Positions 11,277 through 49,043 of a stretch of 64,000 nt of DNA are shown in pieces; the stretch's first letter is position 1; each line of letters starts with the position of its first letter. The notes below the pieces were generated by a model, which searched no databases, had not been told where the DNA came from, and saw only the letters and a list, made by a program, of their open reading frames with translations. The stretch covers positions 2,480,001-2,544,000 of the forward strand of contig CAKKNE010000005.1 in NCBI GenBank assembly GCA_918797485.1, written 5' to 3'. The position numbers were made by a program, and so were the translations under genes. The DNA is from Pelagomonas calceolata. Lineage: Eukaryota; Sar; Pelagophyceae; Pelagomonadales; Pelagomonadaceae.

Positions 11277-11650
11277 CTACGTCCCGCGCCGTCCGCGAAC
11301 CGGCTCGTGTACCGCGGTGCTATTTAGGCCTCGCAAGAGGCGGGCGGGGCCGCGCGGGGCCGCGCGCTGCGAATATTCGCGTCCTTGACCTCTCCTCAGT
11401 TTCTCCTCGCCGCGCGGCCGTGGGGGGCGGCGCGGGCGGGACTGGGCGGCGCTGGGCCTTTGTAGAGCGAGGAGGCCTCGGCTGGGTCTCGCGCAGCCGC
11501 GCGGTGGGCTAGGACGGTGCGCGACTGCAAAGCCGCCTACGACTTCCTAGTGTCTTTAAAGGACGCTAGCAGAATTTTCCCTAACGCAAAAGGCGGAACG
11601 AAGAGGACTCCCCGAGGTCGTCGACGAGTCCAAGAGACAAGAAAACTGAT
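11277..11650. other. Intergenic region
   Basis: This GC-rich spacer lies between the 5' end of the CUE gene and the 3' end of the PDZ gene. A small plus-strand frame at 11234-11512 is Arg/Gly-rich and unconvincing. The only clear feature is the palindrome at 11546-11570. Confidence 0.6.
11546..11570 (-). promoter_or_regulatory. Palindromic upstream element, copy 1
   Basis: The arms are CCTAGTGTC and GGACGCTAGC around a TTTAAA core. It lies 270 bp upstream of the CUE gene and is oriented toward it, with AAGACACTAGG read on the minus strand. Confidence 0.6.
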
Positions 11651-13739
11651 TTACGCCGCCTTCGCGAAGAACCCGTGCGCCCCCGACGCCCGCGACGCGC
11701 TCTTCCGCATGGCCCTCAAGAACGACTTCGGCTTGTCCCGGAAGAGGTGCGGCCTCAGTAAAAACACGAAGGCGACGAGCTTCGTGTGGTGGTACGTGAA
11801 GCCCACCAGGCTGCCGACGTGCAGGCCGTCGTGGCCCCGGCACTCGCCCGCCGAGTCGATTTCTAGGATGGTTGATTTCTGAGCGTCCAACACAGACGAC
11901 CGCCCCTGGTCCGCGTAGCCCAGTAGACGGCCTTTTGAGTCTTCGATGCCGACGAGCGCCGCGTCCGTTTCATTCACAGAAACCTTCCCGACGAGCACGC
12001 CGCCGTCGTCCGTCGCCACGCCCAACGCCGCGTCGACGACGAGCAGCCGCGCGCCCTTGGCATCCTTGAGCGTCGCCCCGTCCTCGCAGATGTGGCCGCG
12101 GTACTGCGCGTCCCGATCCACTATCACTAACTGTGCATCTTTCGGAGCCGAGTAGATGTCGGCGCGCTTCTTCGTGGCGGGCGGCGCTTTCCGTGGTCGT
12201 GCTGAACCACTGCGCTGCGCCTCCTGCGCCGCGAACAACGTGTCGCGGTCCTCGCCTTCAATAAACGTGATGACGAGCGGCCGCGGCGCGTTCGCGATCG
12301 CCGACTTGAGCGTCTCGATGCTCTCCTCGTCGGGGTCCACGACGGCGGCGCCGTTCACAGCACACAACTCGTCGCCGGGCTTGACGCTCTCGAAGCACGC
12401 CGAGCCCCGCTCCGTCGAGTCTACCACCACGAAGCGCCGCCCGCTCTCGCCATATTTCGCGAGCGCCACCCTCAACCCGAGGCTCCGCTCCGGAAACTCG
12501 ACGTCAAACACCAGACCCCGGCTCCGCATCGCCGCGACGTGGTCCTGGACCGCGGCCCGCCTGCGTTGGTACGCCGTCGACGCGACGACGGCGTCGAGGC
12601 GGACGCGTCCCATCGGCACGCTGTCGAGGCAGACATGTACAGTCAGCACGCCGTCGAAGCGACGACGGCGGACACGCACAGTCACCACGCAGTCGACGCG
12701 ACGACGGCGGACAAGTGTCGACACAGGGGAAAAAAAAACAAAGACGCAGCAAAAAATACAGCGCGTCGCGCCGCTCCTTCGCGTCGTCGACCTCGGCCTC
12801 GACGCGCTGCGCGTGCTTATCCAATGGATCGTAGCCGCGCGCGTGCCGCGTCCGCGCGTCGTTTTCGTCGTTCTCGTAGAACTCGCCGACGTGCGTCGCG
12901 TGGCGCGCGGCGTCGGCCTTGGGCAGGGGCTTCCTTCCTACGGGATTGGCCTTGGCGGGCGGCTCCTTCGTCTCCTCCGGCTTTGGTGGCTCCGGGGACG
13001 GCGCCGCGGCGACCGCGGGCGCGGCGACCGGCGGCGTCGTCGCCGCGTCGTCGTCGTCCCATTCTCCATCCTCCTCCTCGTCATCCTCATCATCGTCGGG
13101 CGGCCGGCCGACGGCCGTGCGCAGCTCCGCCGCCTTGTCGAGCAGCGTGCGCCGCGCCTTTTGGGCTTCGGCGCGCTTCTCCCGCTTCGCGCTCGTTCTC
13201 ATATGAACGAGCTCGGCGATAGATATGGAGACGACCCACCTCGTTAATACCGCGGGCGCGTCGTCGATTGCAACGTCGCCGAGCGTCGCCGCCTTCTCGA
13301 TCCACTCACTTAACTCGTCAGCTCTTGAATCCTCGCCCTCCCATAAATCGTCGTAGTGCTCGAAGCGCTCGAACTGGGTCAGTGACGGCGACGCGTCCCG
13401 GAACTTGGGCCGCTGTGCCAGTGCAATTGTGTCCGCGAGGTCGTCGCTCGACCCGAAGACGTCGAGCAGCACGCCGGCGGCCCACCTTCGGAACTTCGCG
13501 GCCGCTTCCACGGAAAAGGCCGCCTCGATGCGGGCATCGACGCCGACCATGACCTCCTTGACCCTCGCGATCTCGTCGCCCTCGGACCACGTCCGCACCC
13601 AGGCCGCTACACTTTGCCGGTCCGGTAAACTTGCGTCGTCCCACGACGCCGCGGCTTCATCCTTTTCCTTAAGCCAGGGTGGTTGGGTGGCGTCGATGAG
13701 CAGCGCTTGCAGGGGCTGGGGGGTGGTGAAGTCGGCCAT
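11651..13739 (-). CDS. PDZ-domain protein, two exons
   Basis: Exons 13739-12760 and 12560-11651 sum to 1,890 nt (629 residues) with matching phases across a 199-bp intron. The N-terminal half is helical and ends in a long acidic stretch, then a Pro/Ala/Glu linker. Exon 2 carries a PDZ-like domain: RSLGLRV stands in the GLGF position, followed by SVKPGDELCAVNG and a LVITFI strand. After it comes a beta-rich tail of about 150 residues with repeated RGHxxEDG/GRLLGYxD patterns that I cannot assign. The start was chosen at MADFTTPQ. Upstream in-frame Met codons lie in what looks like 5' leader. PDZ domains bind C-terminal peptides, so a scaffold role is plausible but no partner is indicated. Confidence 0.7.
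12561..12759 (-). repeat. Intron of the PDZ gene built of about 39-bp tandem repeats
   Basis: The intron runs from a GTATTT donor to an AACGCAG acceptor. About 120 bp of it (12605-12722) is tandemly repeated: 39-bp units at 12644-12682 and 12683-12722 share the plus-strand block GTCGA(A/C)GCGACGACGGCGG, with a shorter diverged unit before them. The same DNA is open in other frames, so genome-only gene callers may wrongly extend exons into it. Confidence 0.65.
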
Positions 13740-14247
13740 TTCTTTTAGCTCTTGCGTCGCGTTGCAGCGTCGTGCGAATGAAGCGCTGCAGCTGCAATGT
13801 GTCTTAGGGCTCTGTCGTGAAGGTCGTGAGCGCTTCGGCTGGGTCTGACGACTGCGTTCTATACGCAGGCCGTAGTAATGGCCTCTCGACGCTTGCGAAG
13901 CGCTGCTGGCCGGTTTTGGCCGATTGGACCGAGCTAGCGTCTTGTAAGACACTAGCAATCTCGGTGTTTTGCCCAGCCGCCCGTAGACGCTGGCATCGAT
14001 CCTTCGGTGATCGTAAAACCGCGCCAAGGAACACCACGCATAGTGCGCCGAGTCTTGGCAGCATTTCTTGCGCGTTCGAAGTCAGGCTTCGCTACTGACT
14101 CAATCGGCCTTATCCTCGCATACCTCGACAACTCTGCGGAGGGCATCGAGACTGACAACTAAGCACTGACGCAAGTCGGCCATAGCTCGTACTGCGTGGA
14201 GGGTATCGAAACTGACAACCATTGCACCGCTACGCCTCCTCGCGACG
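13740..14247. other. Divergent intergenic region with 60-bp tandem repeat
   Basis: This spacer separates the 5' ends of the PDZ gene and the methyltransferase gene. It holds a palindromic element (13933-13956) and a diverged 60-bp tandem repeat (14101-14160 and 14161-14220). The repeat shares a GGAGGG(C/T)ATCGA(G/A)ACTGACAAC block ending just upstream of the methyltransferase start. Confidence 0.65.
13933..13956. promoter_or_regulatory. Palindromic upstream element, copy 2 (near perfect)
   Basis: The arms GCTAGCGTCTT and AAGACACTAGC are almost exact inverted repeats around GT. It lies 194 bp upstream of the PDZ gene and 292 bp upstream of the methyltransferase gene. Confidence 0.7.
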
Positions 14248-16175: not shown

Positions 16176-16711
16176 GGTTTATGCTCTCTGCAGCTATGTG
16201 GCGTGTCGCAGCGACAGCGATGGCTCTCTGTGGCCTGTTCGCAGCTCTTTGTTGGGTGCGCGCCGCAAGCGATGGCGTCGGCTACTGGGTAGCGATGGCT
16301 CTCCTTGCTTGTCGTGCGGCTTTCTGCCTTGCGTAAATGCGTGCCACAGCGACTGTGTCGAGCTATGCGCTTGCAGTATGGGATCCGTTGCTCAGCTTAA
16401 GGCGCTTCACGACCAGCGACAGACCAAGGCCAAAAATCGGGCTAGCGGCTGTAAGACACTAGGCATTCCCGTCGTCTAGCCCTAGCTACGGCCTGCGGGG
16501 AGCATCTGTGCCGCCAGCGCGTTTGGAGGTCCTGGGACATCGTCCGCGCCTGGCGTAAAGAGCTAGCGTCGAAAGCTAGCCGGCTCGGCGGTCTGCGAGT
16601 GCCCAAAAGCTGCTGCTCTGCGCGAGGCCCTAAATCGGCGCGCGACCGCGAACGGATTCCCAAATTGCTGGTAGAGAAGCATCTAAGGACGACTCTCACT
16701 GTGCACGCAAA
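16176..16711. other. Divergent intergenic region
   Basis: The spacer lies between DRG1 and the SGNH hydrolase. It contains a palindromic element at 16441-16464, a second weaker GCTAGCG/GCTAGC pair at 16562-16580, and short repeats of AGCGATGGCTCTC near 16218 and 16289. I see no gene in it. Confidence 0.6.
16441..16464 (+). promoter_or_regulatory. Palindromic upstream element, copy 3
   Basis: The arms are GCTAGCGG and AGACACTAGG around CTGTA. It lies 248 bp upstream of the SGNH gene and 266 bp from DRG1. Confidence 0.65.
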
Positions 16712-17662: not shown

Positions 17663-17726
17663 CATGGGGATGTTGTGAGAATGTATTTTGTTACAGCTCG
17701 AAACTTATGAACACCCCTCCTCATGA

Positions 17727-18641: not shown

Positions 18642-18782
18642 CGCTCCCTTCCCAATTCGCCGGGGCTGTGCTGCGTGTCGCTGATGCCACAAACGCACGC
18701 TCTGCTGCGTGTGTCACTGTGGTCTTTTGGGACAGTGGTTCGCCGGGACACTCTGAAGTGCAAGCGAAGCGCTGCGGAGCGA

Positions 18783-18804
18783 GCTAGCGTACAAGGCCAC
18801 TAGC
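18783..18804 (+). promoter_or_regulatory. Palindromic upstream element, copy 4
   Basis: The arms GCTAGCG and CACTAGC surround TACAAGGC. It lies 67 bp upstream of the OTU gene and 142 bp from the S1 gene, in their shared divergent promoter. Confidence 0.6.
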
Positions 18805-18870
18805 ATCTCGTCCTTGCCGCGGTTTTTGCTGATTTTGGCCGTGCTGCGCGCTTGATTGCAGTAAGGAGCA

Positions 18871-20031: not shown

Positions 20032-20041
20032 GTATGACAAG

Positions 20042-22276: not shown

Positions 22277-22638
22277 CGTCGTGCTGTGTTGGTTGAGAGC
22301 AGCCCAGGTGCGCAAGTGCTGTGCTTGGAGCGCTTTTTTTGGCACCAGCTGTGCCGCAGGAATGAATAATGATACTAGACGGTGCCTGTGGACGCTTCTG
22401 CTGGCGATCAACCGTCAACTAGCCCGGTTGCAGGCAATAAGCTGGCTTGGTACTTGCCTGCTTGCTAGTGTCTTACATGCGCTAGCGAAGATCCACGCGT
22501 GGGAGCCCTAGAAACCGCGCCCCGGGGACGGTATCTCGGCGCTTGGATGGACGGGGAAACCCGTACGCAGGATCGCGTCGAAAAAAATACTGAAAAAGTC
22601 ATTTACACGATGATACTAATAATTGCGAGCCCCGACAA
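22277..22638. other. Intergenic region
   Basis: The 362-bp spacer lies between the triple-fusion start and the receptor-kinase stop. It holds one palindromic element and an AT-richer patch near 22583-22625. I see no gene in it. Confidence 0.6.
22464..22486 (-). promoter_or_regulatory. Palindromic upstream element, copy 5
   Basis: The arms are GCTAGTGTCTTA and GCGCTAGC. It lies 188 bp upstream of the triple-fusion gene and reads in the gene's direction on the minus strand. Confidence 0.65.
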
Positions 22639-25600
22639 TCAGAGCTCCTCCGACACGAGGTCGGGCGGCGGCGGCGACGGCGGCCGCGGCACAAGCGGCG
22701 CTTCACTTTTTTTAACGACGTCGCCGGACGGCGCGCGCGGCGTCGGCACGGGGTCCGGCCGCTTCGTCTCGGCCACTGTTTCTCCCCTAGGCGGCGCTGA
22801 AAACGAGAAGTCCTTCCACGCGTTGTTCGACCGCAGTCTCCTGATTTCCTCGTCGTCGCCCGCCAAGGACGCCGTTTGCCTTGATATCCGAGCCTCACGA
22901 GAGGTCTGCGGCTGCGCGGCCGCGTCCGAATCGTGGAACTCGTCGGCGATGGACGCGGCCCGGCGATCCGTGACCCGCCGAGGTACATAAGCGATATCCG
23001 CCGCATGCTCGAGCGCGGGCACCCAGGGCGGCGGCAGGCGCCGCTGCTCCAGAGCTTCCCAATCGATAGCTTCGAAGTACTTTTGGTGCTTGATCTCATC
23101 TTCGCCCCGATGCATATCTGAAGAATCGCGGTCCACGCCGACGGTCGTCGTATCGGAATTAGTCTTGCCCATCATCCTGCCTAGTAGTCCAGTTCGCTGT
23201 GGAGGTGTTTCGTCGGAAGGCGGCTCTTCGACCGTCGTCAGTCGTTTGACGCCGAACCTTCGCTCCGGCCGCTTCTCCAGCAGGTTCGTCAGCAACTCAA
23301 TCAACTCGTTCGAAAAGTCCAACGGAAACGGCGGCGGCAGATGTAATATCGCGTAGAACATGCGCCGTCGATTCTGGTCCTCGAACGGAGGTCGGCCGGA
23401 AGCCATCTCGAAGATGAGTGCGCCGAGCGCCCACCAGTCCACCGACGTGCCGTAGGCGTGGCCTACGAGTAATTCGGGAGCCATGTACGTCACCGTGCCA
23501 CAAAACGATCGGAGGGGCGCGCCGTCCTCGTGGACACCCAAGGCGCACAAACCAAAATCCGTCAGGGCGACGTCGCCTCTGGAGTCGAGCAAGACGTTGC
23601 CCGGTTTTAAGTCGCGGTGGACGACACCGGCGGCGTGGCAGTGGCGTAGAGCGCACACTAATTCTGCGCCGTAGTATAGCGTTCTTGGATCTCCTAATCC
23701 GGTAGGATGGGCGTCGTCCAGGTGCCGCTCTAGGGAGCCACCGGCGTAGAAATCAGTAACCAAGTACAATCGAGCTCGAGACTGGAACGCGTAGCGCAGT
23801 CGCACGACAAATGGATGCCTTAGTGAGGCGAGAGTTTGTCGCTCGGCTCTGGTATGGGCCGCCTGTCCCGTGTTCCGCACGACCTCCTTATCCAACACTT
23901 TCACGGCGAAGGCCCGCCCGTGCTCCGTTCCCGCGGTCTTCGTCGCCAGTAAAACTCGACCGAAAGCCCCCTTGCCGATGACGTGAGTGACTTCGAAGTC
24001 CCCGACTTTGGTAGAAGCTCGCCTTTTAGCCGTCGAGGGCGGCCGACTATTGGTCGAGGAGGGCGTGTCCGGCGGCGGGCCGGGCGGCGGCGGCGGCGGC
24101 GGCGGCGGCGGGCCGCGCGGCGTCGCCCGCGCGCCCCGTAGTTGATTATCATACACCTCCCAGTCGTCGGGAGACTTCGGCGGGGTCCGCAGTCGTCCCC
24201 TATCGCTCTGCGACTGCGCGTCCTTCCGGATCTGATCAATCTCGGACCCGCGCCGCGCAAATGCTAAAACATCGGCCGGCCAGCCGCTCGCGTCGTCCAA
24301 GACGCCGCCCAACGAATCCTGGGGGTCGTCCAGTAGTAATTCAGCGTCGCCGTCGACGCCCCAGGCCGTATCTAACCTGCCTAACTCGACGTCGGCCTCC
24401 TTCGTGTCCTCTGAATCTAAATTGGCGCGCTTCACTTGTGTCCGTGGCCGTCTCCACATAAATGCGACGCAGCAGCAGATCAGCGCCGCGGCGGCGACGC
24501 ACACGATGATGATGATGTACAGCAAGCTGTTGTTCGAGGAGGACTTCTTGCTGCTCTTCAGCGACGTCGGCGCCGCCGTCGGCGCTGGCGAAGGTTTTGG
24601 TGAAGGCGCTGGCGACGTCGTCGGCGAGGCCGTCGACGGCATCGGCGTCGTCGGCTCGGGGCTTATGGACGGCGCCGGCGACGGCGGGATGAAGGTCGTC
24701 GGCGCGAACGTGGGCGGCACGGACGGGAACTCCGTCGGGTTTGACGAGGGTTTTGGTGTCACCGTCGGCGCGGCCGTCGGGTGGAAGTCGAACATCCGTA
24801 TGGAGTCGAGCGCGAAGTCCGAGAGGGCGCCGGAGCCGGTCGTCGCGACGAAGGAGACGTATGACGTACCGGGAGGCAGGTGGACGACGGCCTCCTCCCA
24901 GACTCTGGCAGGATTATCTCCGGAGACGGACCATAATTCAACTTCAGTGTAGTCGTTCTCATCGACGCAGTCGTAGGTCCAGCACCCCGTGACCGTGACC
25001 TGTAAGGTACCTAGGTCGGCGCCGTACATCATGTAGGCGAAGCCCAGGGCCACTTCGCACGACGGCGGCCAGAGCCAATCACCCAGACTAGAAGGGTACG
25101 TCGGCGAGTCCAGCCGGAACACTTTCGAGGGATAGGCGTTGTCCGCCATCTGATTCGAGCGGAACGTCCCCGAATTGTCGCACCGCACGAACGCCCACGG
25201 CTGGTCGGGGCCCTCTGAACTCTCGAGCGCGCCCGTTTCAAGACCATCGGCCTTCGACGTGTCCGACCGCGACCAGCACCGCTCAAAGCCGCCGAGGCAC
25301 ACGAAGTCGTCCTCCACAATATCGTAGAACTCGCCGCCCTTCCAATCTCCCCACCCTTCACCGCCGTCGCTCACCTCGAAGCTCACGGCGAGGGGCCACT
25401 GCGCTTCTAGATCGGCGACTCTACAATATAATGTAGGCGCGGCCGTCGTCGGCACGGCCGTCGTCGGCTTTGGTGTGGGCATGCCTGTCGGTACGTTCGT
25501 GGGCACCTCGCTCGGCGCTGCGGTGGGTTCCGCGGTCGTGGGCCTGGCCGTCGTCGGCTTTGCTGTAGTCGGCGCGGCCGTCGTGGGCCGCGCCGTCGAA

Positions 25601-25761
25601 GGCGCCGCCGTCGTGGGTTGTGGAGTCGTGGGCCGCGCCGTCGACGGCGCGGCCGTCGTCGGCCGCGCGGTCGTCGGCGCCGGCGTGGGCCGCGGCGTCG
25701 GATCTTGGGCGACGGCTAGGCCGACCAGGGCGACCAGCGCCAGCTGGCGCGCCCTCGCCAT
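22639..25761 (-). CDS. Receptor-like AGC-type protein kinase with MAM-like ectodomain
   Basis: This is a 1040-residue single-exon protein. Residues 1-19 are a signal peptide. Residues 20-110 form a Pro/Thr repeat stalk. About 113-325 form a Cys-containing MAM-like domain (EVALGFAYMMYGADLGTLQV, ending SDFALDSIRMFD). A second Pro/Thr stalk follows, then one membrane helix at 412-436. The cytosolic side has an acidic linker, a poly-Pro run and a kinase domain at about 588-898 with glycine loop GKGAFGRVLLAT, Lys621, HRDLKPGNVLLD (Asp717), DFG at Asp735 and MAPELL. A low-complexity insert occupies 841-888. An AGC-type hydrophobic motif, WKDFSFS, lies near 982-988. All catalytic residues are present. 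It probably senses an extracellular ligand and signals as a Ser/Thr kinase. Confidence 0.9.
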   Translation of the reverse strand: MARARQLALVALVGLAVAQDPTPRPTPAPTTARPTTAAPSTARPTTPQPTTAAPSTARPTTAAPTTAKPTTARPTTAEPTAAPSEVPTNVPTGMPTPKPTTAVPTTAAPTLYCRVADLEAQWPLAVSFEVSDGGEGWGDWKGGEFYDIVEDDFVCLGGFERCWSRSDTSKADGLETGALESSEGPDQPWAFVRCDNSGTFRSNQMADNAYPSKVFRLDSPTYPSSLGDWLWPPSCEVALGFAYMMYGADLGTLQVTVTGCWTYDCVDENDYTEVELWSVSGDNPARVWEEAVVHLPPGTSYVSFVATTGSGALSDFALDSIRMFDFHPTAAPTVTPKPSSNPTEFPSVPPTFAPTTFIPPSPAPSISPEPTTPMPSTASPTTSPAPSPKPSPAPTAAPTSLKSSKKSSSNNSLLYIIIIVCVAAAALICCCVAFMWRRPRTQVKRANLDSEDTKEADVELGRLDTAWGVDGDAELLLDDPQDSLGGVLDDASGWPADVLAFARRGSEIDQIRKDAQSQSDRGRLRTPPKSPDDWEVYDNQLRGARATPRGPPPPPPPPPPGPPPDTPSSTNSRPPSTAKRRASTKVGDFEVTHVIGKGAFGRVLLATKTAGTEHGRAFAVKVLDKEVVRNTGQAAHTRAERQTLASLRHPFVVRLRYAFQSRARLYLVTDFYAGGSLERHLDDAHPTGLGDPRTLYYGAELVCALRHCHAAGVVHRDLKPGNVLLDSRGDVALTDFGLCALGVHEDGAPLRSFCGTVTYMAPELLVGHAYGTSVDWWALGALIFEMASGRPPFEDQNRRRMFYAILHLPPPFPLDFSNELIELLTNLLEKRPERRFGVKRLTTVEEPPSDETPPQRTGLLGRMMGKTNSDTTTVGVDRDSSDMHRGEDEIKHQKYFEAIDWEALEQRRLPPPWVPALEHAADIAYVPRRVTDRRAASIADEFHDSDAAAQPQTSREARISRQTASLAGDDEEIRRLRSNNAWKDFSFSAPPRGETVAETKRPDPVPTPRAPSGDVVKKSEAPLVPRPPSPPPPDLVSEEL

Positions 25762-30386: not shown

Positions 30387-30732
30387 GAATCGATGGCCGT
30401 GCCCGCTGCTTAATAGAGGCACGCAGATGCACACAACTGCACACGGAGACCGCGAGCAGAGGTGATGCTGTGGCCGGCGTGAGTCTAGGGCTAGAAGGCG
30501 ACAGCGATGGATTTGCTGGCGTATTAAGCGAATCAATGCGGGACTGCGAGGTCTTACCTTGCCTCCCAGCCTGCAAACTCAGTCTCCGCGGCAGCAGCGC
30601 TAGCTAGCGGCTGTAAGACACTAGCATTTGCAAAAACCGCACGCTGTAGCGTCGCTTGCGGGGAAGTCGTGTGGCAACTCGATCGGTCCGGACGTACGAG
30701 ACAGGACCTCTTAGGACGGGGAGCATAGGAGC
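30387..30732. other. Intergenic region
   Basis: This spacer is upstream of the Maf fusion and downstream of the plastid PDZ gene. Its one recognisable feature is the palindromic element at 30603-30625. Confidence 0.55.
30603..30625 (+). promoter_or_regulatory. Palindromic upstream element, copy 6
   Basis: The arms GCTAGCGGCTG and AGACACTAGC match copy 3 closely. It lies 217 bp upstream of the Maf fusion but in the opposite orientation to most other copies. Confidence 0.65.
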
Positions 30733-31317: not shown

Positions 31318-31501
31318 TTTTGTGCTTGGCTTTATGTGCTTGCAAAGCGCTTGGCTTCGCGGCAGGAGCGACGAGCGATGCGGTTGAACCAAGTTATGTG
31401 CAGAGCGTTCACCCTGGTCACGTTCACTCAGTCTCAGCTGTAGGAGGATGGTCGTGAAGGGGCTCGTGCGGTGGCTTGGCTCTGCATCAGAGCTTGACAT
31501 G

Positions 31502-31523
31502 GCTAGTGTCTAAGCTACGCTAG
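31502..31523 (-). promoter_or_regulatory. Palindromic upstream element, copy 7
   Basis: The arms GCTAGTGTCTA and TACGCTAG lie 185 bp upstream of the plastid PDZ gene, in the gene's direction. Confidence 0.6.
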
Positions 31524-31612
31524 AATAACCAAGCGTCGCTACCCGAGTGGTCTGTCGCAATTTCACAAACACGTCACCTTACTCTCACTCACTCGCCACC
31601 AGTCCCCGAGGG

Positions 31613-32738: not shown

Positions 32739-34389
32739 CTATTTGTTAAGGAGGTCCTCGCGCCGCCGCGCGGCGTCCTTGGCGGACATGGGCCGGACCT
32801 CGGCGTCGCGCGGCCGCGCCCACGTCGTCACCTCGGTGACGTGGTTGAAGTAGTAGACGTGCTTGTGGTTCGGATCCCAGCCCTCGATCCAGTCCGGCCC
32901 GTCCTCGGAGTACTCGCTGCCCGACTCGTCCGACGACTCCTCCTCGCTCGATTCCGACGCGGGCGTTTGCGGTTTGCGGGGCAGCGTGTCGACGGCGCCC
33001 TTGGCGATGAGGCGGTCGCGGAGCGACTGGGCGGCCGCCGGCGCGGGCGCGGGCGCGGCGAAGGCGCTCGCCGCGAAGGGGTCCGCGAAGGTCGACGCGG
33101 CGGCGGCGAAGGGGTCCGCCGCGCCGAAGGACGACGCGGTCGCGGCGAAGGGGTCCGCGGCGGCCGGCGGCGTCGGCGCGCCGAACGCGGATGACGCGGC
33201 CGGCGGCGTCGGCGCGCCGAAGGCCGACGCGGCCGGGTCCACCGGCGCGCCGAAGGCCGACGCCGCGGACGAGAACGGGTCCGCCGCCGCGGGCGCGGGC
33301 GCGGGCGCGCGCGCCGCGGGGGCCGCGGGCGCGCCGAAGGCCGACGCGCCGAAGGCCGACGCCGCGAAGGCCGACGCCGGCGTCGCGTCGCGCGGCAGCA
33401 GCGAGGGCGGCGCGGGCGCCGGCGCCGGCCGCGCGCCGCTCGCGTCGCCGCGGCGGCGCGCCGCGGCGGCGGCGGGCGCCGCCCAGGCCCGCCGCGGCGC
33501 GGCGGGCGGCGCCTTCGTCGTCGAGAGCGCGTTGCGCACGTGCGAGGGCACGGCGTGGCCGTGGCGCCGGTCGGCGCAGAGCGGGTTGCGGCCGACCTTG
33601 ACCTTCGCGAGCTTTTTCAGCGGCGCGAGGTGCTTCAACCTGCGTGGACACAACGTCGCGTCGACGGCGTAGAAGCTCCGCGCCGTCGAGCAGGCGCGAT
33701 TTCGACACCGACACAAACTGGTCCGCCGCGAGGCGGTTGCCCCGCAGATCGAGCTCCTCGAGGTTCGGCGCCTTGGCGATGTCGGGAGCGACGAAGCGCA
33801 CGACGTTGTGCGCCACGACCAGCCGCTTGAGGCACGGCGCGCCCGCCGCGCCCAGACTGAGTTTTTGCACGCGGTTGAAGGCCGCGAGCAGCACCTCGAG
33901 GCGCGGCGGGAAGCCCCCCTTCACACCAGCCGCGCGCGCGCCCGGGTGAGCGGCGAGCACCTTCGCGTGGTCGCCTGGTATGGTAACGGCGCCCGTCGGG
34001 CCGAGGCGCTCGAGCTCATTTCTGGAGACGTCGAGCTTGACCAGCGCGATGAGTGGCGCGAGCGTCCGCGCGTCGAGGTGCTGCAGGCGGTTGTTTCTCA
34101 GCACAAGGGTGTGGATGGTCCGTGTTGCGAGGGTCCTTTCCACGGCCGCTGGTACCGTGAATACTTTCAGTTCTTTGCCCCGCAGGTCGAGCACGCCGTC
34201 CTCGCAAACGTCGTTTTCCTCCGTTACTGTGTGGGCGTGCGCGCTTTCCAGTTCCGCGTAGAGGCGCTCGGCGCGCTCGCAGCGCTGCTGCTGTTGTGTA
34301 GAGAGGAGCCGCGTGTCCCGCTCGATCTCGTCTCGCTTTCTTGCGCAGAGCCGCTCCCAGGCGTGCTCGTCTCGATCTGGGCGGACCAT
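32739..34389 (-). CDS. LRR / DPF-repeat / WW-domain protein, two exons
   Basis: Exons 34389-33713 and 33639-32739 join in phase 2 across a 73-bp intron (GTCGGT donor, CCACGCAG acceptor) to give 525 residues. The N-terminal helical region leads into leucine-rich repeats (LVLRNNRLQHLDARTLAPL, LVKLDVSRNELERL, LEELDLRGNRL). The splice gives ADQFV followed by LKHLAPLKKLAKVKVG, a good LRR end. The middle is Ala/Pro-rich with many SAFG units and several DPF triplets. The C-terminus has a WW domain with GWDPNHKHVYYFNHVTEVTTW. DPF triplets bind the AP-2 appendage in endocytic adaptors, so a trafficking role is suggested but unproven. Confidence 0.78.
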
Positions 34390-34814
34390 CGTTTGCCTTC
34401 GTTTTGCAGGGAAGCCGCAGGGGGCAGCCGCGACGACGGCGTCCGGTGGAGGTGCGTGCCCTGTGGCCGCTTGGCTTATGCGTGCGTCGTCCGAACGCCA
34501 ATATTTGTAGGCGCGCCGGTTGCTCGAGCCCCGGCGCCCGAACGGTTTGTTGGAGCTAGTATGTCACTATACGCTAGGATCGGCGCCGAGACCTTTCACG
34601 GGGCATATTGATCCTATTATCACTCTTCAGCGGCTGAGAGTCTATAGAAGTGCCGCAAACAGCGAGCGCTGGCCGCAGAAGCGAGCGCTAGGCCGCAGAA
34701 TCGAGAATCCACTGGTTGAGAAGGACACCCAGCTTGCGTGTGCTCCTTAACACCTGCCAAACCAAACGCACGCCGCCGGCCGTAGACAGCAGCGCCGGCC
34801 GGCCGCCCAGCACC
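34390..34814. other. Divergent intergenic region
   Basis: The 425-bp spacer lies between the LRR/WW gene and CENP-S. It contains the palindromic element at 34555-34577 and a short direct repeat, AGCGAGCGCT/AAGCGAGCGCTAGGCCGCAG, near 34660-34700. I see no gene in it. Confidence 0.55.
34555..34577 (-). promoter_or_regulatory. Palindromic upstream element, copy 8 (diverged core)
   Basis: The arms GCTAG and CGCTAGG surround TATGTCACTATA. It lies 166 bp upstream of the LRR/WW gene and 238 bp upstream of CENP-S. Confidence 0.5.
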
Positions 34815-35183: not shown

Positions 35184-35256
35184 GGAGCGTGTGTGTGTGT
35201 GCATCGCTTTTGTCGGACTCCTCTCGCGTCGATGGCGTAGAGGTTTTGCGCAAGAA

Positions 35257-35280
35257 GCTAGCGGCCCGTAAGGCACTAGC
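35257..35280 (+). promoter_or_regulatory. Palindromic upstream element, copy 9
   Basis: The arms GCTAGCGGC and GGCACTAGC surround CCGTAA. It lies 134 bp upstream of the glycosyltransferase-like gene. Just before it, GCGTCGATGGCGTAGA resembles a block inside the Maf introner. Confidence 0.65.
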
Positions 35281-35413
35281 AGCGAGCATGTGCAATTTTG
35301 CTGCTGCGGCATGTCCACGGCCCTAAGGGTGGGCGGTGTTGCCGCCTTGGCGCTCGTTCCGGTGGCTGTAGTGCTGACGGTGTGGCTTCTGAGAGTCTGA
35401 GGCAGCCCCACCG

Positions 35414-36589: not shown

Positions 36590-36645
36590 TTTTTGTGATT
36601 TTTTCTCTCTCTGGTCTTTCTATAGAGCTACTACGATAGACCGCA

Positions 36646-36667
36646 GCTAGCGGTGTAAGACACTAGC
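36646..36667 (+). promoter_or_regulatory. Palindromic upstream element, copy 10
   Basis: The arms GCTAGCGG and AGACACTAGC surround TGTA. It lies 116 bp upstream of the CPBP protease gene and in its direction. Confidence 0.65.
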
Positions 36668-36782
36668 AATCAGGGAGCTTTTGCAGGGCACAAATCATAC
36701 GCGCCCTGTGCAATCGCTGCGTAAACGTCCTCATCATTCATTCCACCGGCACGTCGAGCTCGCAAGCTATAAATCGGCCACC

Positions 36783-37700: not shown

Positions 37701-37717
37701 TATTTTATCGACAACAT

Positions 37718-38791: not shown

Positions 38792-39167
38792 AGTTTTGGA
38801 GACTGGTTTGCAGTGAGTCTGGGTCGTGCAGTGACACTACTACAGCTGCCCCTTGGAGGTTGCAATGTCGACGTCGAGCGACTATAGAGTGCGTCTCAGC
38901 CAACTCAGATCGATCTTAAACTCAACTTCCGAGCAGTTTGATGCACGCAGTGCTTCGCCAAGGGAGCCTCGCAAATCGAGTCTCTCTAGCAAGCTAGTGC
39001 CTCTATACACCGCTAGGGTATTATTATTGCCAAAAAGCGCTGCCGTAGGTCACAGGGGACCTCGCACGGCACGGATAGACGAGAAATAAGAAGCAGCCAT
39101 AACACGCAAAAAGAGCTCCGCAAAAGCAGCGGCGAGCGGCCATCAGCGGTAGGCCAAGACAGCAGCA
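38792..39167. other. Divergent intergenic region
   Basis: The spacer lies between the PhyH gene and an acidic orphan gene. It contains the palindromic element at 38993-39016. A 78-residue plus frame at 38853-39089 overlaps the element and has no recognisable features, so it is not called. Confidence 0.55.
38993..39016 (-). promoter_or_regulatory. Palindromic upstream element, copy 11 (diverged)
   Basis: The arms GCTAGTGC and CGCTAGG surround CTCTATACAC. It lies 202 bp upstream of the PhyH gene and 152 bp upstream of the acidic orphan. Confidence 0.5.
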
Positions 39168-40978: not shown

Positions 40979-43900
40979 ATGCCGTCGCCGAGCATGAGCG
41001 CGTCGCGCACGCCGTCGCGCGCCGTCGGCCGCCTCTTTGGTCTGGACGCCTCGCAGCCGCGGCACCAGGCTCCTCCTGTTGATGACGACTGGGACGACGA
41101 CCACGACGAAGACGCCTTCTACGAGAGTACACGAAGGCGGAGCGACGCGTCGCGGTCGGCGTCGCGGTCGCGCACGCCGCGCCGGTCCCTCAGTCGACGA
41201 AGGAGGTCGTCGGCCACGCAGTCGCCCAACGTCCTGAGGGAGCCACATAAAGCACACAGCAAGACGTGGCGGCCGCCCGGCGCCGCCCACGCTTCCCAGA
41301 GGACGCTGCCGCCCGCGCCATCTAGAACTGAGGGACGGCCCCTGACCTTCGACGTCGACGCGCTGCAGAAGGACCACGCCATCATTGTCGATCAAGTGAT
41401 TGAGCAATTAACGCGGGGCAACGCCCTGAGCGTGTCTTCCTTAACATTAGCGGAACCTCAAAAATTCGGCGCGGTCTACGACCGCCTCCAGGCGGAGCTC
41501 GAGCGGGTCCTCGATAGTAGGGAGGACAGCACGCCGGCGGACGCCGCGCGGTCGCGCGACGTGCAGCACATCGTCTCCATCCTCTTTTCTTTAGTGGAAC
41601 ACGAGCGGTCTTCATTTTTATTCTCGATGTCTTCATTAAGGGAGACGGTCAAGCGGCGCGAGGGCCGGCTGGCGGCTAGAGCATCGTCCGAACTGTCGCA
41701 GGGGCTCCAGCGGCGCCTGAACGCCGGCGCGGCGCTCCTCACGGCGTTGACGCGCGTCGCGTTGGAAGAAAGGCCGACGCGCCGGGCCTGGAGCAAGTGG
41801 CGCTTGTATACCGCACAAAGCATCAGCGCGTCACGGTGCGCTGCTTTAGAGACGGCATTGAGGTTCGCCGCGGGCCAGTCCGAGGAGGCCGCGCTGCGGG
41901 AGCAGGAAGCGCGCGAAAAACTTTTGAAGCGCGTCGCGAGTCGGTGGCTGAACATGGAGAAGCACGGCATCTTTGACCGGTGGAACGAGTGGCGCCGGGA
42001 ACGAGTCTACGTGAGGCAGCTGGCTAAAAGAGTTCTGGGGCGGATGATGCACGGGAAAGTGGCCTCAGCACTAGCGTCGTGGGTGAGGATGGTGCAGGTG
42101 TGCAAGGAGGAGGAATCGGAGAAGAAGCGCCAGGAGGTCATCCTCCAAAGAGTAAGGGCGAAGTGGCTCCTTGGCTCGTTATCAAGAGTCATGAACCGGT
42201 GGTGCGAGATGGTCTCCGAAAGGAAGCACATGCGTCGACTCGTGAAGAAGGTCATCGGCCAGCTCATGAACGGGTTGAGCGGGAGTGCCTTCCGGACGTG
42301 GACGTGCAACGTGACGGAAATGAAGGCCCAGGAGGAGGAGGCCAAGCGCCAGGCCGTCATTTTTGAGAGGATACGCAAGAGGTGGCTCAACCAGACGACG
42401 GGCGCGGCCTACCGGTCCTGGCTCGAGTTCGTGTATGAAAGGAAGCGCATCCGAGGTCTCGTGAACAAGGTGGTAGGGCAGCTCATGCACGGTTTGGAAA
42501 GTTCCGCGTTCCGAGCTTGGTTGGAGAACATGAAGGCCATGGACGAAGCAAAAGAGGAGGAGCAGCGCATGCAGCGGATCCTGGACAAGGTCCGGCGGAA
42601 CTGGCTGATGGCCGGCGTGAACAGCGCGTTCCGGCGGTGGAACGAGTATCGGGGCGAGCGGCGGCAACTGCGCAAACTGGCCACAAAAACGATCCAGCAG
42701 ATGTTGAATAATCGCGTGCTGCCAGCATTTAAAGAGTGGGTCAATAAGGTCGAATTGTTTAAGCGGGCGGATTATCTGATGCGCAAGGTGATGGGGCAGT
42801 TATTACATGGGCTGACCGGGTCCGGGTTCCGGTCGTGGTGTGGCGTCATTACTCAAATGAAGCAAGAGGAACACGAGGCGCAGCTTGAGAAGTGTCGCCG
42901 GCTCGAAGCCCAACTCCAAGAGAAAGAGGACGAAATGCAGGCCATCGAGCAGGCGAGGATCCAAAGTTTGATGAGCCGCGTCGCTCTACGCCTAAAGAAC
43001 GGCGGCTTACTGAAAGTATGGGCGCGCTGGGAGGAGCTCGTCTACGACCGTAAATTGATGAGGAAGGTCGTCGGTCAATTGCTACACGGGTTGACTGGTG
43101 TTGCCTTCCGGTCGTGGTTTGCGTTCGTCGAAGAGCAGGAGCGAGCAGAACAGGAAGCGGCGCGGCACGACGCGATCTGCGCCAAGTTCGTCGCGCGCAT
43201 GCGCCTCGTCTCCGCCTCGAAAGCCTTAAATTCCTGGCGCGAGAACGCGCACGAGCGGAAAAGATTAAGGCGCCTCATGCAGCACGTCCTGACGCGATTG
43301 ATGAAAGGCAGGCTCGTGCCCTCACTAAGTCAGTGGCGCGCCGCCGCGACGGCGCTGCGATTGGAGGCGCGCGAGAAGGAACGGCAACAAAAGCTCCTCG
43401 ACCGCATGCGCCGGCGCATGCAACACAAGTGCATCTTCTCGGCGCTCCTCGCCTGGGACCACTTCGTGGGCGAGCGGAAAAGATTAAGGGCCCTCGCGCT
43501 GCACGTCCTGAACCGCTTGTCGCGGGGCAAGGTCGTTTTGGCTGTAGATAGGTGGCGCGCGGTTTTACGAGAGGAGAAGCAAAACGAGCTGAAACACGAC
43601 CGAGTCGAAAAGTTGATGCGGCGCGTCGCGCTCCGTCTAAAAAACGCGGGCTTCGTCAAGGTCTGGGGCGCCTGGGAGGAGTTCGTCTGGCAGCGGCGGA
43701 CGCTGCGGGCGCTCACTCACAGATTTATCGACGGCAAGGTCGCGGCGGCGCTATTCACCTGGAGGGAGGAACGGCGCTGCGGGATCATTCTCGAGAGGTT
43801 CGGAAGGCGGCTGCGGTTCGCTTGTGTCTCCAAAGCATTAACGACGTGGATTCTTTATAGAAGAGAGCGGAAACGCGTGCGCGCGCTCATGACGCACATC

Positions 43901-46555
43901 CTGGTCACGCTCAAGCATGCCTTAGCGCACAAGGCCTTCGGGACCTGGCTCGCCTACGAACATGAGGAGCGGCGGCTCGAGAATGTGGGAAAGCGGGTCC
44001 TCGTCATGCTGACGCGCGGCTGCCTTTTAAGGTGCTTCCACGCCTTGCAGGCGGAGCGCGATGAAAGGAGGAGGTTGAGGGAAATTGTGAAGAGAGCCGT
44101 GCGCCAGATGCGCCAGGGCAAGCTGGGTTTGGGTTGGCGGTGCTGGCGCGAGGTTGTGGTCCAAGGTCGACTCCTGGGCGACGTCGGCGCGCGGCGCCTG
44201 GCGCTCATGCGCGTTTGTAGGTTTGTGCGCCATTCTCTAGTCGTGAGCTTTTCCACGTGGCGGCGGGGCAGCACGTTGCTCGTCTCGCACGCTTACGAGG
44301 ACTACAAAATGAGGGACGAGCACTGGCGCGAGAAGCGAGCTCTACAAATGTGGACGGACAACGTCGCGGGGCGGTGCTTCGATACTTGGAGGGAGGTAAT
44401 CCGGACGGAGAAGAGGGAGCGCGTGGCCCTCTACCGCCACTCACTAAGAGTGAACAAGCGCGTCCGCCTCGACATCTTCACGAAGTGGGATCGCATGCGA
44501 CGGGACCGGCGGCTCGCGCGGTCCGTGCTGAGTAGGATGATCCACGTCGCTGTTGATGGTACCACAAGAGCAGCAATAGATATCTGGCGGGACCAGGCCT
44601 TTGATATGCGGCGGCACGAGGCCGTGTTGGATAGAACCAGAAGGCGGTGGCTCCACCGGACGGCCACGAAGTCCTTTGAGCGGTGGCGCGAGTACGTTTT
44701 AGTGAGGAAGCACGTGAAGACCGTGGCGCTCCACGTCCTCCAGCGCCTCGCGCACAGCAACGCGGCGCCGGCGTTTATTCAGTGGCGCGACCAGACGCGG
44801 CGTTTGGCCCATTGCGACCACCTGGTCGGAAGTGCCTTGGCGCGCATGCGCCACGCCTGCGCAGCTAGAGCTTTCGTGGGGTGGGTGCACCGCTGGGAGG
44901 AATCGAAGAGGCGGACCGACCTCCTGACGCACATTGTGATGAAATTACTACATGCGAAGCTGGCGCCGGGCTTCCGGAAGCTCGTGGCTTGGGCCTTGGA
45001 TTACGATAGGCGCGCGCTCGCGCGGGAGCGCACAGATAGGTTACTGCGGCGCGTCGTCGCCGTCTTCGAGCACACGCGATTGAACGAAGGGCTCAACGGC
45101 TGGAAGCGGTTCACTTTCTTGAGGAGGGAGGCCGAGGAGAAACAGGTAAGGCAGGACGTCATCCTGGACAGATGTAGAAGGCGCCTGCGCCACTCGCTGC
45201 TCGGAAGGTCGTACAACCAGTGGGTCTTCTACAAGCGGGACCGGAAGCGCCTCCGGACGCTGGCGCGGAGGATAGTAAAACAGTTCTACAACAACGAGAC
45301 CTGGCCGGCCCTGAACACGTGGAAGGCCTTTGTCGTGCGGCAGCGGTCCTTAGAACGGCTCATGCATAAAGTAATCGGGCAGCTGCAGCACCGGCTCACG
45401 AGTACGAGCTGGAGGACCTGGACCACGACCGTACGAAGGGCGGTCCGCTACGAGACCATAATCGATAGATCCAGAAGGAAGTGGCTCTACCACGCGCAAG
45501 CCAAAGCTCTCACGGCGTGGTGCTTCATGGTCTCGGAGCGCCAGCGGCTGCGGAACCTCGTGAAGAAGGCCTTCTACCGCATGCGGGCGTCGAAGTTAGG
45601 TAGAGGCTTCCGGACGTGGGCGCGCATCGTCGAAGCGGGCCGCACGACTTTAGTGAGGGACGCGGCAGCATCAGCAAAGACGGCGGCGCGCTACTGGTTC
45701 GACGCGGCCGAATTAAGGAGCGAGCACGTGTTGCGGCGGAACGCGTTTGGGGCGTTCAAGCAGCTGAGGAGGCGGCGCGCGCAGAATCGATTGAGAGCCG
45801 CGCGGTGGGCGCGGGCGTTGAAGAGGCGGCGGACGCGGGGCGTCTTCGAGAACTGGAGAAGGTACGGTAAACTAAGGATGCTGCAGGTGCCGGGGAAGTT
45901 AAGGGCGGCCTTGAGGGTGGCGCACGACGAGTGCGCGCGGCAATTAAGGAGGGGCTTTTCCATCTGGTTGCACGGCGTGGACGTGGCGAAATTGGAGGAG
46001 GCGAGAAAAGCGGCGCAGGGCGCGTCGCGGCTGCAGCGCCTCGACAAGGCATTGGTGGCCATCGAATACACGCAGTATCAGTTGGTAAGGAAGGTCTTCG
46101 TGGCGTGGACCGACGTCTTCCTCCACCGGAAGCGGAGCGGGCGCCTGACGTCCTTCGTGGGGGTCGCGCTGGCCCGCGCGACGATGATCAAGGCGTACCA
46201 CGCCTGGGGCCGCTACGTCGAGAGCCACCGCCGCGTGCGCCGCACGCTCAAGACGCTCTCGACGCGCAAGCACGCGACGAACTGTTTTCGGGCCTTCGGC
46301 CGCTGGCACGCCTACTCGGCGTCGCTGCCGGCCGTCGGCGCGGACTTCGTCGCGGGCTTCGCCGTGCCGCCTCCGCCCTGCGACGACTCCGACGAGGACG
46401 TGACGCTCACGCCGCCGCCGCCGCCTTCTGGATTGTTCTCTTCCGGTCCATCCTACGCGTCGACGCCGACGGCCGCGCAGCCGTACTTCGACGACGATCC
46501 GGCAGCTGGCGCGACGCTCTACGAGAGCCCGGTCGGGCGCGCGGTGGAGTACTAG
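40979..46555 (+). CDS. SFI1: Sfi1-like centrin-binding repeat protein
   Basis: This is a 1858-residue single-exon protein. After a Ser/Arg-rich N-terminus (about 120 residues) and a helical linker, nearly the whole protein is a continuous helix of Trp-based repeats of the type AFRxWxxxVxERKxxRxLVxK. Sfi1 repeats bind centrins and build contractile or spacing fibres at centrosomes and basal bodies. Here many repeats pair into an unusually regular super-repeat: RAKWLLGS and RKRWLNQT occur exactly 73 residues apart, and the next unit, RRNWLMAG, is again 73 residues on. Each unit holds RW, a middle W, ERK, a KVIGQLM(N/H)GL block and a second W. The C-terminal 100 residues are acidic, Pro-rich and non-repetitive. 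Confidence 0.9.
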   Translation: MPSPSMSASRTPSRAVGRLFGLDASQPRHQAPPVDDDWDDDHDEDAFYESTRRRSDASRSASRSRTPRRSLSRRRRSSATQSPNVLREPHKAHSKTWRPPGAAHASQRTLPPAPSRTEGRPLTFDVDALQKDHAIIVDQVIEQLTRGNALSVSSLTLAEPQKFGAVYDRLQAELERVLDSREDSTPADAARSRDVQHIVSILFSLVEHERSSFLFSMSSLRETVKRREGRLAARASSELSQGLQRRLNAGAALLTALTRVALEERPTRRAWSKWRLYTAQSISASRCAALETALRFAAGQSEEAALREQEAREKLLKRVASRWLNMEKHGIFDRWNEWRRERVYVRQLAKRVLGRMMHGKVASALASWVRMVQVCKEEESEKKRQEVILQRVRAKWLLGSLSRVMNRWCEMVSERKHMRRLVKKVIGQLMNGLSGSAFRTWTCNVTEMKAQEEEAKRQAVIFERIRKRWLNQTTGAAYRSWLEFVYERKRIRGLVNKVVGQLMHGLESSAFRAWLENMKAMDEAKEEEQRMQRILDKVRRNWLMAGVNSAFRRWNEYRGERRQLRKLATKTIQQMLNNRVLPAFKEWVNKVELFKRADYLMRKVMGQLLHGLTGSGFRSWCGVITQMKQEEHEAQLEKCRRLEAQLQEKEDEMQAIEQARIQSLMSRVALRLKNGGLLKVWARWEELVYDRKLMRKVVGQLLHGLTGVAFRSWFAFVEEQERAEQEAARHDAICAKFVARMRLVSASKALNSWRENAHERKRLRRLMQHVLTRLMKGRLVPSLSQWRAAATALRLEAREKERQQKLLDRMRRRMQHKCIFSALLAWDHFVGERKRLRALALHVLNRLSRGKVVLAVDRWRAVLREEKQNELKHDRVEKLMRRVALRLKNAGFVKVWGAWEEFVWQRRTLRALTHRFIDGKVAAALFTWREERRCGIILERFGRRLRFACVSKALTTWILYRRERKRVRALMTHILVTLKHALAHKAFGTWLAYEHEERRLENVGKRVLVMLTRGCLLRCFHALQAERDERRRLREIVKRAVRQMRQGKLGLGWRCWREVVVQGRLLGDVGARRLALMRVCRFVRHSLVVSFSTWRRGSTLLVSHAYEDYKMRDEHWREKRALQMWTDNVAGRCFDTWREVIRTEKRERVALYRHSLRVNKRVRLDIFTKWDRMRRDRRLARSVLSRMIHVAVDGTTRAAIDIWRDQAFDMRRHEAVLDRTRRRWLHRTATKSFERWREYVLVRKHVKTVALHVLQRLAHSNAAPAFIQWRDQTRRLAHCDHLVGSALARMRHACAARAFVGWVHRWEESKRRTDLLTHIVMKLLHAKLAPGFRKLVAWALDYDRRALARERTDRLLRRVVAVFEHTRLNEGLNGWKRFTFLRREAEEKQVRQDVILDRCRRRLRHSLLGRSYNQWVFYKRDRKRLRTLARRIVKQFYNNETWPALNTWKAFVVRQRSLERLMHKVIGQLQHRLTSTSWRTWTTTVRRAVRYETIIDRSRRKWLYHAQAKALTAWCFMVSERQRLRNLVKKAFYRMRASKLGRGFRTWARIVEAGRTTLVRDAAASAKTAARYWFDAAELRSEHVLRRNAFGAFKQLRRRRAQNRLRAARWARALKRRRTRGVFENWRRYGKLRMLQVPGKLRAALRVAHDECARQLRRGFSIWLHGVDVAKLEEARKAAQGASRLQRLDKALVAIEYTQYQLVRKVFVAWTDVFLHRKRSGRLTSFVGVALARATMIKAYHAWGRYVESHRRVRRTLKTLSTRKHATNCFRAFGRWHAYSASLPAVGADFVAGFAVPPPPCDDSDEDVTLTPPPPPSGLFSSGPSYASTPTAAQPYFDDDPAAGATLYESPVGRAVEY

Positions 46556-46660
46556 AGACGCGTCGACGCCGACGGCCGCGCAGCCGTTCACTTCGACGAC
46601 GACCCGGCAGCTGGCGCGACGCTCTACGAGAGCCCGGTCGGGCGCGCGGTGGAGTACTAG
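46458..46660. repeat. About 101-bp tandem duplication spanning the Sfi1-like stop codon
   Basis: The last coding segment of the Sfi1-like gene plus its stop (46458-46557) is repeated at 46560-46660 with only a few differences. The shared text includes GGCAGCTGGCGCGACGCTCT and GTGGAGTACTAGAGA. The second copy lies after the stop and is not translated. Near-identity implies a recent slip or unequal exchange. Confidence 0.9.
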
Positions 46661-46685
46661 AGATGTAATACATGAATACTACAAC

Positions 46686-47141: not shown

Positions 47142-47495
47142 GGCTGGCCGAAATTACACGCGTACGAGTACGAGTATGCGCACGCGGGGCCGCCTCGAGC
47201 AGGTCTGTGATTCAGCACAGAGAGGACAGTGCCTTGATTCAGCAATTATACAATCGAATCGATCGTCCGCAGCGAATATTAGGCGAAGCGGCGACCTGTT
47301 CGATCCAAATTGTGACCTAGCGCTGCTCAGCCTCCCAGCACCCGCCGCGCGCTCACTTGCTTGCTAGTGTCAGTGCTTGCTAGTGTGTTACATGCCGCTA
47401 GCTGTCATTATTGCAAACCACCTCACTTCATCAACTCGTTAGTTTGGTGTTATCTTCAGAGCCAATTTTGCCAGAACTTAACCCAACTTAAAGGC
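47142..47495. other. Divergent intergenic region
   Basis: The 354-bp spacer lies between the small charged protein and the CIA30/PAN gene. It is AT-richer than average and contains the palindromic element plus an extra half-site at 47363-47370. Confidence 0.6.
47379..47402 (-). promoter_or_regulatory. Palindromic upstream element, copy 12, with extra half-site
   Basis: The arms GCTAGTGTGTTA and GCCGCTAGC lie 94 bp upstream of the CIA30/PAN gene. A further GCTAGTGT half-site sits 16 bp before it. Confidence 0.6.
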
Positions 47496-48947: not shown

Positions 48948-49013
48948 GGGGTCGTCGCTTCGTCTCTCCCGGCCCCAATCCTGTAAAAATCATGTGCTTT
49001 GACTCGTTTGATG

Positions 49014-49043
49014 GACTGTAAGACACTAAGACACTCACTAGCA
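49014..49043 (+). promoter_or_regulatory. Palindromic upstream element, copy 13 (irregular)
   Basis: CTGTAAGACACTAAGACAC followed by TCACTAGC looks like a duplicated right half of the element. It lies 133 bp upstream of the OGFOD-like gene. Confidence 0.45.

Follow-up and report, generated by a model that had tools for sequence, protein, structure and literature searches.

The window analysed here, a 64,000-nucleotide stretch of the genome of Pelagomonas calceolata (C5:2480001–2544000), carries 13 copies of a palindrome-like DNA element that is real and genome-wide: about 29 bp long, numerous, largely constant in sequence with two unequal arms, placed in promoter regions, almost always one per region, and free of orientation bias. 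We consider it probable that this element is the bound centre of the promoter, a bipartite and orientation-independent site that would organise transcription initiation for one or both of the genes flanking it. The genome comprises 32,445,274 bp in 8 contigs; the published assembly is described as 32.4 Mb, with plastid and mitochondrial sequences alongside six nuclear contigs (PMC9481584).

Our main sample is 264 kb of contiguous sequence, the window plus the preceding 200 kb, in which a self-trained gene finder places 169 coding segments covering 77% of the sequence. A second sample comprises 50 kb from five other contigs, in 10-kb pieces, and eight 3-kb loci of contig C1 that were retrieved by the motif itself. 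Sites were scored with a gapped weight matrix refined on the 264 kb, a score of at least 14 bits defining a strong element and at least 9 bits a looser set. The controls were the reversed pattern, for genome counts, and three shuffles of the 264-kb sample.

The two half-sites in inverted arrangement, CTAGCG-N3-13-CACTAG, occur at 4113 sites in the genome (2036 + 2077), compared with 45 (19 + 26) for the reversed pattern. In direct arrangement the same half-sites occur 39 times (19 + 20), as against 41 (20 + 21) reversed, and several of these 39 are themselves inverted copies in which TG stands by chance just after the right arm. The genome scan with both half-sites and a variable core that was suggested with the original prediction returns 1531 matches to GCTAGCGG-N4-14-CACTAGC and 3 to its reverse, and TGTAAGACACTAG occurs 1599 times versus 0 reversed. 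Patterns whose matches were listed in full match solely contigs C1–C6. Within the 264 kb, the comparison with shuffled controls, suggested at the same time, gives 39 exact matches of the half-sites versus 0 in all three shuffles and 1 for the reversed pattern; with one mismatch allowed there are 62, versus 11, 3 and 10 shuffled and 21 reversed. Matrix scores split in an all-or-nothing manner, with 58 sites at 14 bits or more compared with 0, 0 and 0 in the shuffles, and the band of 5–14 bits, where decayed copies would fall, shows no excess (11 sites versus 8–10 in the shuffles). Extrapolated from 58 per 264 kb, the genome would hold about 7,000 elements. In the window, the matrix at 9 bits or more returns precisely the 13 copies that had been predicted; all are present, and 12 are complete and score 20.3–46.3 bits, whereas the copy at 49014 is only partial.

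The element reads roughly AGCTAGCGKCMTGTAAGACACTAGCAAGC, with a CTAGCG arm, a TGTAAGA core, a CACTAG arm and an AAGC tail. Across 62 sites of at least 9 bits, it resolves into a left module, AGCTAGCGT, worth 11.2 bits, and a right module, TGTAAGACACTAGCAAGC, worth 22.5 bits; the overall figure of ~34 bits is somewhat inflated because the sites were picked by similarity. At 58 strict sites, 39 from the 264 kb and the rest from the second sample and thus a different set from the 58 sites of at least 14 bits, information extends from 2 bases left of CTAGCG to ~6 bases right of CACTAG and is near zero in the 25 bp beyond the element on each side. Most often CTAGCG stands 10 bp from CACTAG (32 of the 62 sites); the separation is 9 bp in 12 sites, 8 bp in 6, 11 bp in 4 and 5–7 or 12 bp in 8. 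In most of the listed copies, the TGTAAGA core stays beside the right arm, and what follows the left arm differs between copies in both length and sequence; the base following CTAGCG is G in 64% and T in 36% of the 36 strict sites with a 10-bp gap. We count this variable spacer, set between arms and a core that change little, as a point for a bipartite bound element. Compensation between the two modules was also considered and rejected, as their scores show no trade-off (correlation +0.19). The AAGC tail is sometimes extended to (AAGC)2–3, with at least one unit in 20 of the 58 strict sites and at least two in 4, and CACTAGCAAGCAAGC occurs 81 times in the genome versus 0 reversed. A second and more compact form, built on the core TATCGACA and exemplified by CTAGCGTATCGACATACTAG and CTAGTGTGTCGATACACTAG, also recurs genome-wide and may be a subtype for a related factor; the pattern CTAGCG-N3-13-ACATACTAG, which includes it, has 263 sites versus 1 reversed.

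The element was originally described as a palindrome, and it is an approximate inverted repeat, but at one fixed position the two arms do not match, the first reading CTAGCG and the second, on the other strand, CTAGTG. Free variation of the arms would cap the mixed form at half of the sites; the C/T pair accounts for the 4113 genome sites above, compared with 136 for the T/T form (12 in the reversed control) and 48 for the C/C form (78 in the reversed control). At least 9 T/T places among the 50 distinct ones listed belong to an unrelated repeat with core AGTTTTGCGC, which brings the true T/T count down further. The CpG observed/expected ratio in the 264-kb sample is ~1.0–1.4; CpG is not depleted, which makes deamination (C-to-T decay) an unlikely source of the C/T arms. 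The asymmetry argues against a homodimer site with equal arms and against a hairpin maintained through base pairing. An RNA hairpin in 5′ untranslated regions, acting post-transcriptionally, would be consistent with the folding of three copies on both strands (−6.8 to −15.3 kcal/mol, z-scores −1.15 to −5.20), but the fully pairing arm forms number only 136 and 48 against 4113, giving no sign of compensatory pairing. The element also occurs in either orientation (11 of 21 tandem cases agree with the gene), the depletion of ATGs described below begins outside it, and the window has no Rfam match at or above a family's gathering score; a hairpin is scarcely credible.

The absence of the element from coding DNA, claimed for the 13 copies, extends to the larger sample, and density between convergent genes is likewise near zero. 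Among the 58 sites of at least 14 bits, 56 lie in promoter-bearing regions, that is, divergent or tandem intergenic regions, 1 lies in a convergent spacer, 1 at an edge and 0 in coding DNA, against a background of 77% coding sequence and 3.5% convergent spacers. The 11 sites of the 5–14 bit band fall otherwise, with 4 in coding DNA, 5 in tandem or divergent regions and 1 each in a convergent spacer and at an edge. Our first, hand-filtered set of 51 elements, from which 11 of 62 raw matches had been dropped as likely chance or overlapping, contains 30 divergent and 21 tandem placements and no coding or convergent ones. The second sample gives 20 sites on C1–C4, of which 17 are divergent or tandem, 3 are at locus edges and none is coding or convergent (12 sites in the 50 kb, 11 tandem or divergent and 1 at an edge; 8 in the C1 loci, 6 and 2, respectively); one 10-kb piece of the five (L033) has no element.

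That the element stands upstream of about half the genes was borne out: 66 of the 126 ATG-started genes in the 264 kb have it. Counted by region, 58 of the 106 promoter-bearing regions longer than 60 bp carry it, and a single one carries two (59 sites of at least 9 bits). This one surplus site in an already occupied region compares with a mean of 16.7 and a minimum of 7 in 5000 random placements, and among 196 strict sites in C1:1–1,506,392 only 4 gaps are shorter than 1 kb, versus 23.8 expected. Two strict pairs, C1:575888/575925 and C1:938485/938594, stand within 110 bp of each other and are the sole gaps below 800 bp among those 196 sites. The distance to the nearest ATG is 100–300 bp for 51 of 56 sites, compared with a mean of 30 and a maximum of 42 over 2000 random placements, and no site lies closer than 80 bp, compared with 14 at random placement.

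The prevailing orientation toward the gene that the window had suggested, where 5 of 6 tandem copies agree, is not kept in the larger set: 11 of 21 tandem pairs have the same orientation as the gene and 10 the opposite, and over 72 gene sides the count is 35 the same. No bias is thus seen in placement, and the element may be active in both orientations. The prediction of a promoter-proximal factor-binding dyad is well supported, with the amendments that the element is an asymmetric pseudo-dyad (CTAGCG/CTAGTG) and that it shows no preferred orientation toward its gene. A directional core-promoter element comparable to TATA, Inr or the oomycete INR+FPR would fit the closeness to the presumed transcription starts and the lack of a TATA box nearby, yet the fixed orientation it implies is contradicted by the 11 of 21 tandem pairs and the 35 of 72 gene sides. 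The oomycete core motifs are described with forward:reverse ratios of 1.8–5.9 near the start codon and have another sequence (PMC3599244). We regard a directional core element as very unlikely.

The other origin originally entertained, that of a miniature repeat lodged in promoters, agrees less well with the data than the dyad. Such a mobile-element remnant or miniature, resembling miniature inverted-repeat transposable elements (MITEs) or introners, would insert in open promoter DNA and have no promoter function. The copies are indeed highly alike (~34 bits), some have the extra AAGC units noted above, and the ~210-bp intron length peak reported for this genome is described by its authors as the length typical of introner elements known from Aureococcus (PMC9481584). 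But target-site duplication, sought at lengths of 2–6, 8 and 9 bp and at four offsets, is nowhere clearly above shuffled pairing, the most deviant of the 28 comparisons being at 3 bp (5 versus 1.6). The whole element is ~29 bp, with no flanks shared beyond ~30 bp and no internal sequence between terminal inverted repeats; there is no excess of decayed copies at 5–14 bits, only one region of the 58 holds two copies, and the upstream-ATG step described next is anchored on the element. A mobile origin therefore seems improbable, and the mobile repeat, the RNA hairpin and the directional core element all fit worse than a bound promoter-centre element.

Upstream ATGs, which are selected against in 5′ leaders, served as a proxy for where the leader begins. 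Over 72 gene sides, the density of sense ATGs falls from 12.4 to 3.8 per kb at a step +20 bp from the element centre, and CAT on the same strand shows the opposite trend across the step. Restricted to out-of-frame ATGs, the fall is from 7.6 to 2.0 per kb, at +25. A step anchored on the element beats one anchored on the ATG by 11.3 log units and exceeds all 200 jittered controls. Such scarcity of ATGs beginning ~20 bp on the gene side of the centre suggests that transcription starts just outside the element; this indirect proxy, a matter of sequence statistics, may point to a near-fixed distance between element and start. The A/T skew reverses sign at the element in both the divergent and the tandem sets. 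Runs of TTTTT are raised 15–45 bp toward the gene, at 7.7 per kb (19 cases) versus 0–2.8 in other bins. Over 82 gene sides no TATAWA occurs in bins 15–105 bp on either side, a count that excludes the central 30 bp occupied by the element.

Several results weigh against a bound promoter-centre element that sets the start, or against parts of that reading. With two mismatches allowed, the 264 kb give 197 matches versus 138, 128 and 116 in the shuffles and 160 reversed, so that loose matching is mostly chance. The spread of element–ATG distances is not significantly narrower than random (P = 0.11). The ATG step comes mainly from divergent sides (52 of 72); on the 20 tandem sides the density falls from 6.9 to 2.9 at +25, and the element anchor is preferred by only 1.9 log units. 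Because the best breakpoints differ between same-oriented (−30) and opposite-oriented (+5) copies, the exact offset of the start is uncertain. In the tandem set the A/T skew is back to −0.05 in one bin past the element. AAAAA is raised too, with 8 cases on the gene side (3.3 per kb) and 13 on the far side (5.3 per kb), so the T-run signal may in part, or even wholly, reflect AT-rich flanks. CpG periodicity of 120–260 bp aligned on the element is nowhere above 95% of 60 jittered controls (120 and 160 bp come close), so that this indirect measure gives no sign of nucleosome phasing; ATG-aligned periodicity, for which there was no control, has larger values at 150 and 210 bp. With our own gene finder gene starts may be off, and introns may account for some tandem gaps. 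Genes of this genome have 0.45 introns on average, and intron lengths peak near 210 bp (PMC9481584); most element-bearing tandem gaps are longer than this. The remaining 48 of the 106 promoter regions have no element and no clear replacement motif, the over-represented 8-mers of the 264-kb promoters offering only weak words for a second motif. In favour of the element, its own words head that list. Outside it, a weaker promoter word, GCTGCCCC, occurs in 23 of 126 promoters versus 5.3 expected. Finally, ~34 bits is well above the need of one factor for ~7,000 sites, for which by our arithmetic ~13 bits would suffice.

The presence of one element per region, the lack of orientation bias and the leader-like DNA on the gene side lead us to propose a bound promoter-organising factor. 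A putative sequence-specific protein or complex would contact both the right module, TGTAAGACACTAGCAAGC, and the left arm, GCTAGCG, whose spacing is flexible: its CTAGCG usually stands 10 bp (range 5–12) from CACTAG. Binding would hold the promoter open and direct RNA polymerase II to initiate some tens of bases beyond the element, in one direction where the genes are in tandem and in both where they diverge. The binding protein, the exclusion of nucleosomes and the recruitment of polymerase are putative parts of this model. A narrower version is that the element is a general regulatory factor site of the Abf1/Reb1 type, which frees the promoter of nucleosomes and isolates adjacent genes from one another without itself placing the starts. 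One element per intergenic region, in tandem and divergent settings alike, the missing orientation bias, the bipartite build and the adjoining T-runs all suit it, as does a placement of 56 of 58 sites in promoter-bearing regions with 0 coding and 1 convergent. Against it, the ATG step ~20 bp from the centre is nearer than the layout of yeast promoters would lead one to expect. We hold this version possible but rather doubtful; it lies within the broad claim of a bound promoter-centre element, and our confidence in the one overlaps with that in the other. More speculatively, and with slightly greater though still tentative confidence, one over-specified, bipartite and asymmetric 29-bp element, alone at the centre of about half of all promoter regions, may have replaced the usual mix of core-promoter signals and now set initiation on either side; its reading by a multi-contact factor peculiar to the lineage, or by a pair of factors sharing the site, would explain ~34 bits where ~13 suffice.

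The sites of yeast general regulatory factors are common to many unrelated genes and carry 12–15 bits, and that of Abf1 is bipartite. The element differs from them in having another sequence and ~34 bits, in occupying about half of the sampled promoter regions and in lying nearer to the presumed start. NRF1 sites, in animal bidirectional housekeeping promoters, are palindrome-like and follow a symmetric motif, GCGCATGCGC; compared with this motif by eye, the element is likewise palindrome-like but unrelated in sequence and asymmetric. Searches for the NRF1 and THAP families gave no match, but the control genomes were silent too, which makes the result uninformative. Like the element, the sites of Abf1, Reb1 and Rap1 are located in promoters, and these factors are described as shaping promoter chromatin and directionality (PMC9481977). 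The animal ZNF143/THAP11 motif (SBS/M4) is also long and promoter-proximal, and by eye its sequence as given in the source, ACTAYRNNNCCCR, is unrelated (PMC5006282). By analogy, these yeast sites and the ZNF143/THAP11 motif would be the closest working analogues, their sequences being unrelated. Within the stramenopiles, the oomycete motifs INR+FPR and DPEP were, like the element, found in promoters by overrepresentation, but they are reported as orientation-biased, with an AT-rich INR/FPR and SAASMMS for DPEP, each in 7–18% of promoters (PMC3599244). The early promoter of the Aureococcus virus AaV, AAAAATGA, is a promoter motif of a pelagophyte virus, but it is viral, AT-rich and unrelated in the form reported (PMC5917014). 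Our search of viral contigs gave 2 matches, both in contigs whose frames look to us like those of tailed phages and neither with the 3–13 bp spacing; for a pattern of 18 fixed bases in seven spacings, we roughly estimate that a collection of this size would yield a few matches by chance. A narrower pattern had 0 matches in prokaryote genomes. We found no description of the element, four of its strings included, in the literature searched, outside which most subscription papers lie, and as a promoter factor site it would be unusual in its dominance, information content and asymmetry.

In our view, little is known of promoter grammar beyond the animals, fungi and plants. A strong motif in about half of the promoter regions would make transcription starts, bidirectional promoters and a regulatory factor directly searchable. 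The element would improve gene annotation and could supply a minimal promoter for genetic tools in P. calceolata, an alga of the open ocean; it points to what may be a shared on-switch able to serve genes on both sides. An all-or-nothing, over-specified site also lends itself well to the question of why a single promoter element comes to dominate in some genomes.

Pfam assigns a family at E = 0.001 or better to 22 of 30 window proteins, 20 of them above the curated cut-off and on the predicted strand, and the neighbours of the individual copies are named accordingly. Five complete copies are divergent. Copy 2 (13932–13960, plus strand, gap 10, 46.3 bits), a near-perfect inverted repeat, has a TPMT-type methyltransferase gene on its right; copy 3 (16440–16467, plus, gap 9, 33.7 bits) has on its left a GTPase gene with MMR_HSR1, MMR_HSR1_Xtn and TGS; copy 4 (18782–18808, plus, gap 8, 21.7 bits) lies between an S1-domain gene on the minus strand and an OTU protease gene on the plus strand; copy 8 (34551–34579, minus, gap 10, 27.6 bits) lies between an LRR gene (minus) and a CENP-S gene (plus); and copy 11 (38989–39018, minus, gap 11, 20.3 bits) has a PhyH gene to its left. 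Copy 1 (11542–11571, minus, gap 11, 36.6 bits) stands between tandem minus-strand genes and copy 9 (35256–35284, plus, gap 10, 31.4 bits) between tandem plus-strand genes. Upstream of a minus-strand gene are copy 5 (22460–22487, minus, gap 9, 37.9 bits; pseudouridine synthase), copy 7 (31498–31525, minus, gap 9, 25.5 bits) and copy 6 (30602–30629, plus, gap 9, 40.6 bits), the last oriented opposite to its downstream Maf-like gene. Copy 10 (36645–36671, plus, gap 8, 42.4 bits) precedes a plus-strand Rce1-like gene, and copy 12 (47375–47403, minus, gap 10, 44.1 bits) a plus-strand CIA30 gene. The degenerate copy 13 at 49014 (49009–49034, plus, 9.4 bits), upstream of a plus-strand 2OG-Fe(II) oxygenase gene, scores 20.2 bits in its right module and −10.8 in its left; TGTAAGACACTA is kept, the normal left arm is missing, and a second CACTAGCAAGC follows. 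Because ordinary enzymes occur among window genes both with and without the element, we claim no functional class for the genes that have it.

An unrelated short repeat, CTAGTGAGTTTTGCGCCACTAG, lies at C1:1196660, 2231511, 2722326, 2884445, 2886250, 2905263, 2905618 and 3004753 and at C2:1724570, 6 of these 9 listed copies being in or near 2.7–3.0 Mb of C1. In the window, an open frame of 1858 codons (40979–46555) has no Pfam match at E = 0.001 and contains four copies of a 66-nucleotide repeat at 42240–43121. GC-rich tandem repeats, many with 12- or 15-bp steps, occupy positions 61051–61480, 25429–25701 and 33031–33420 and probably encode low-complexity protein stretches.

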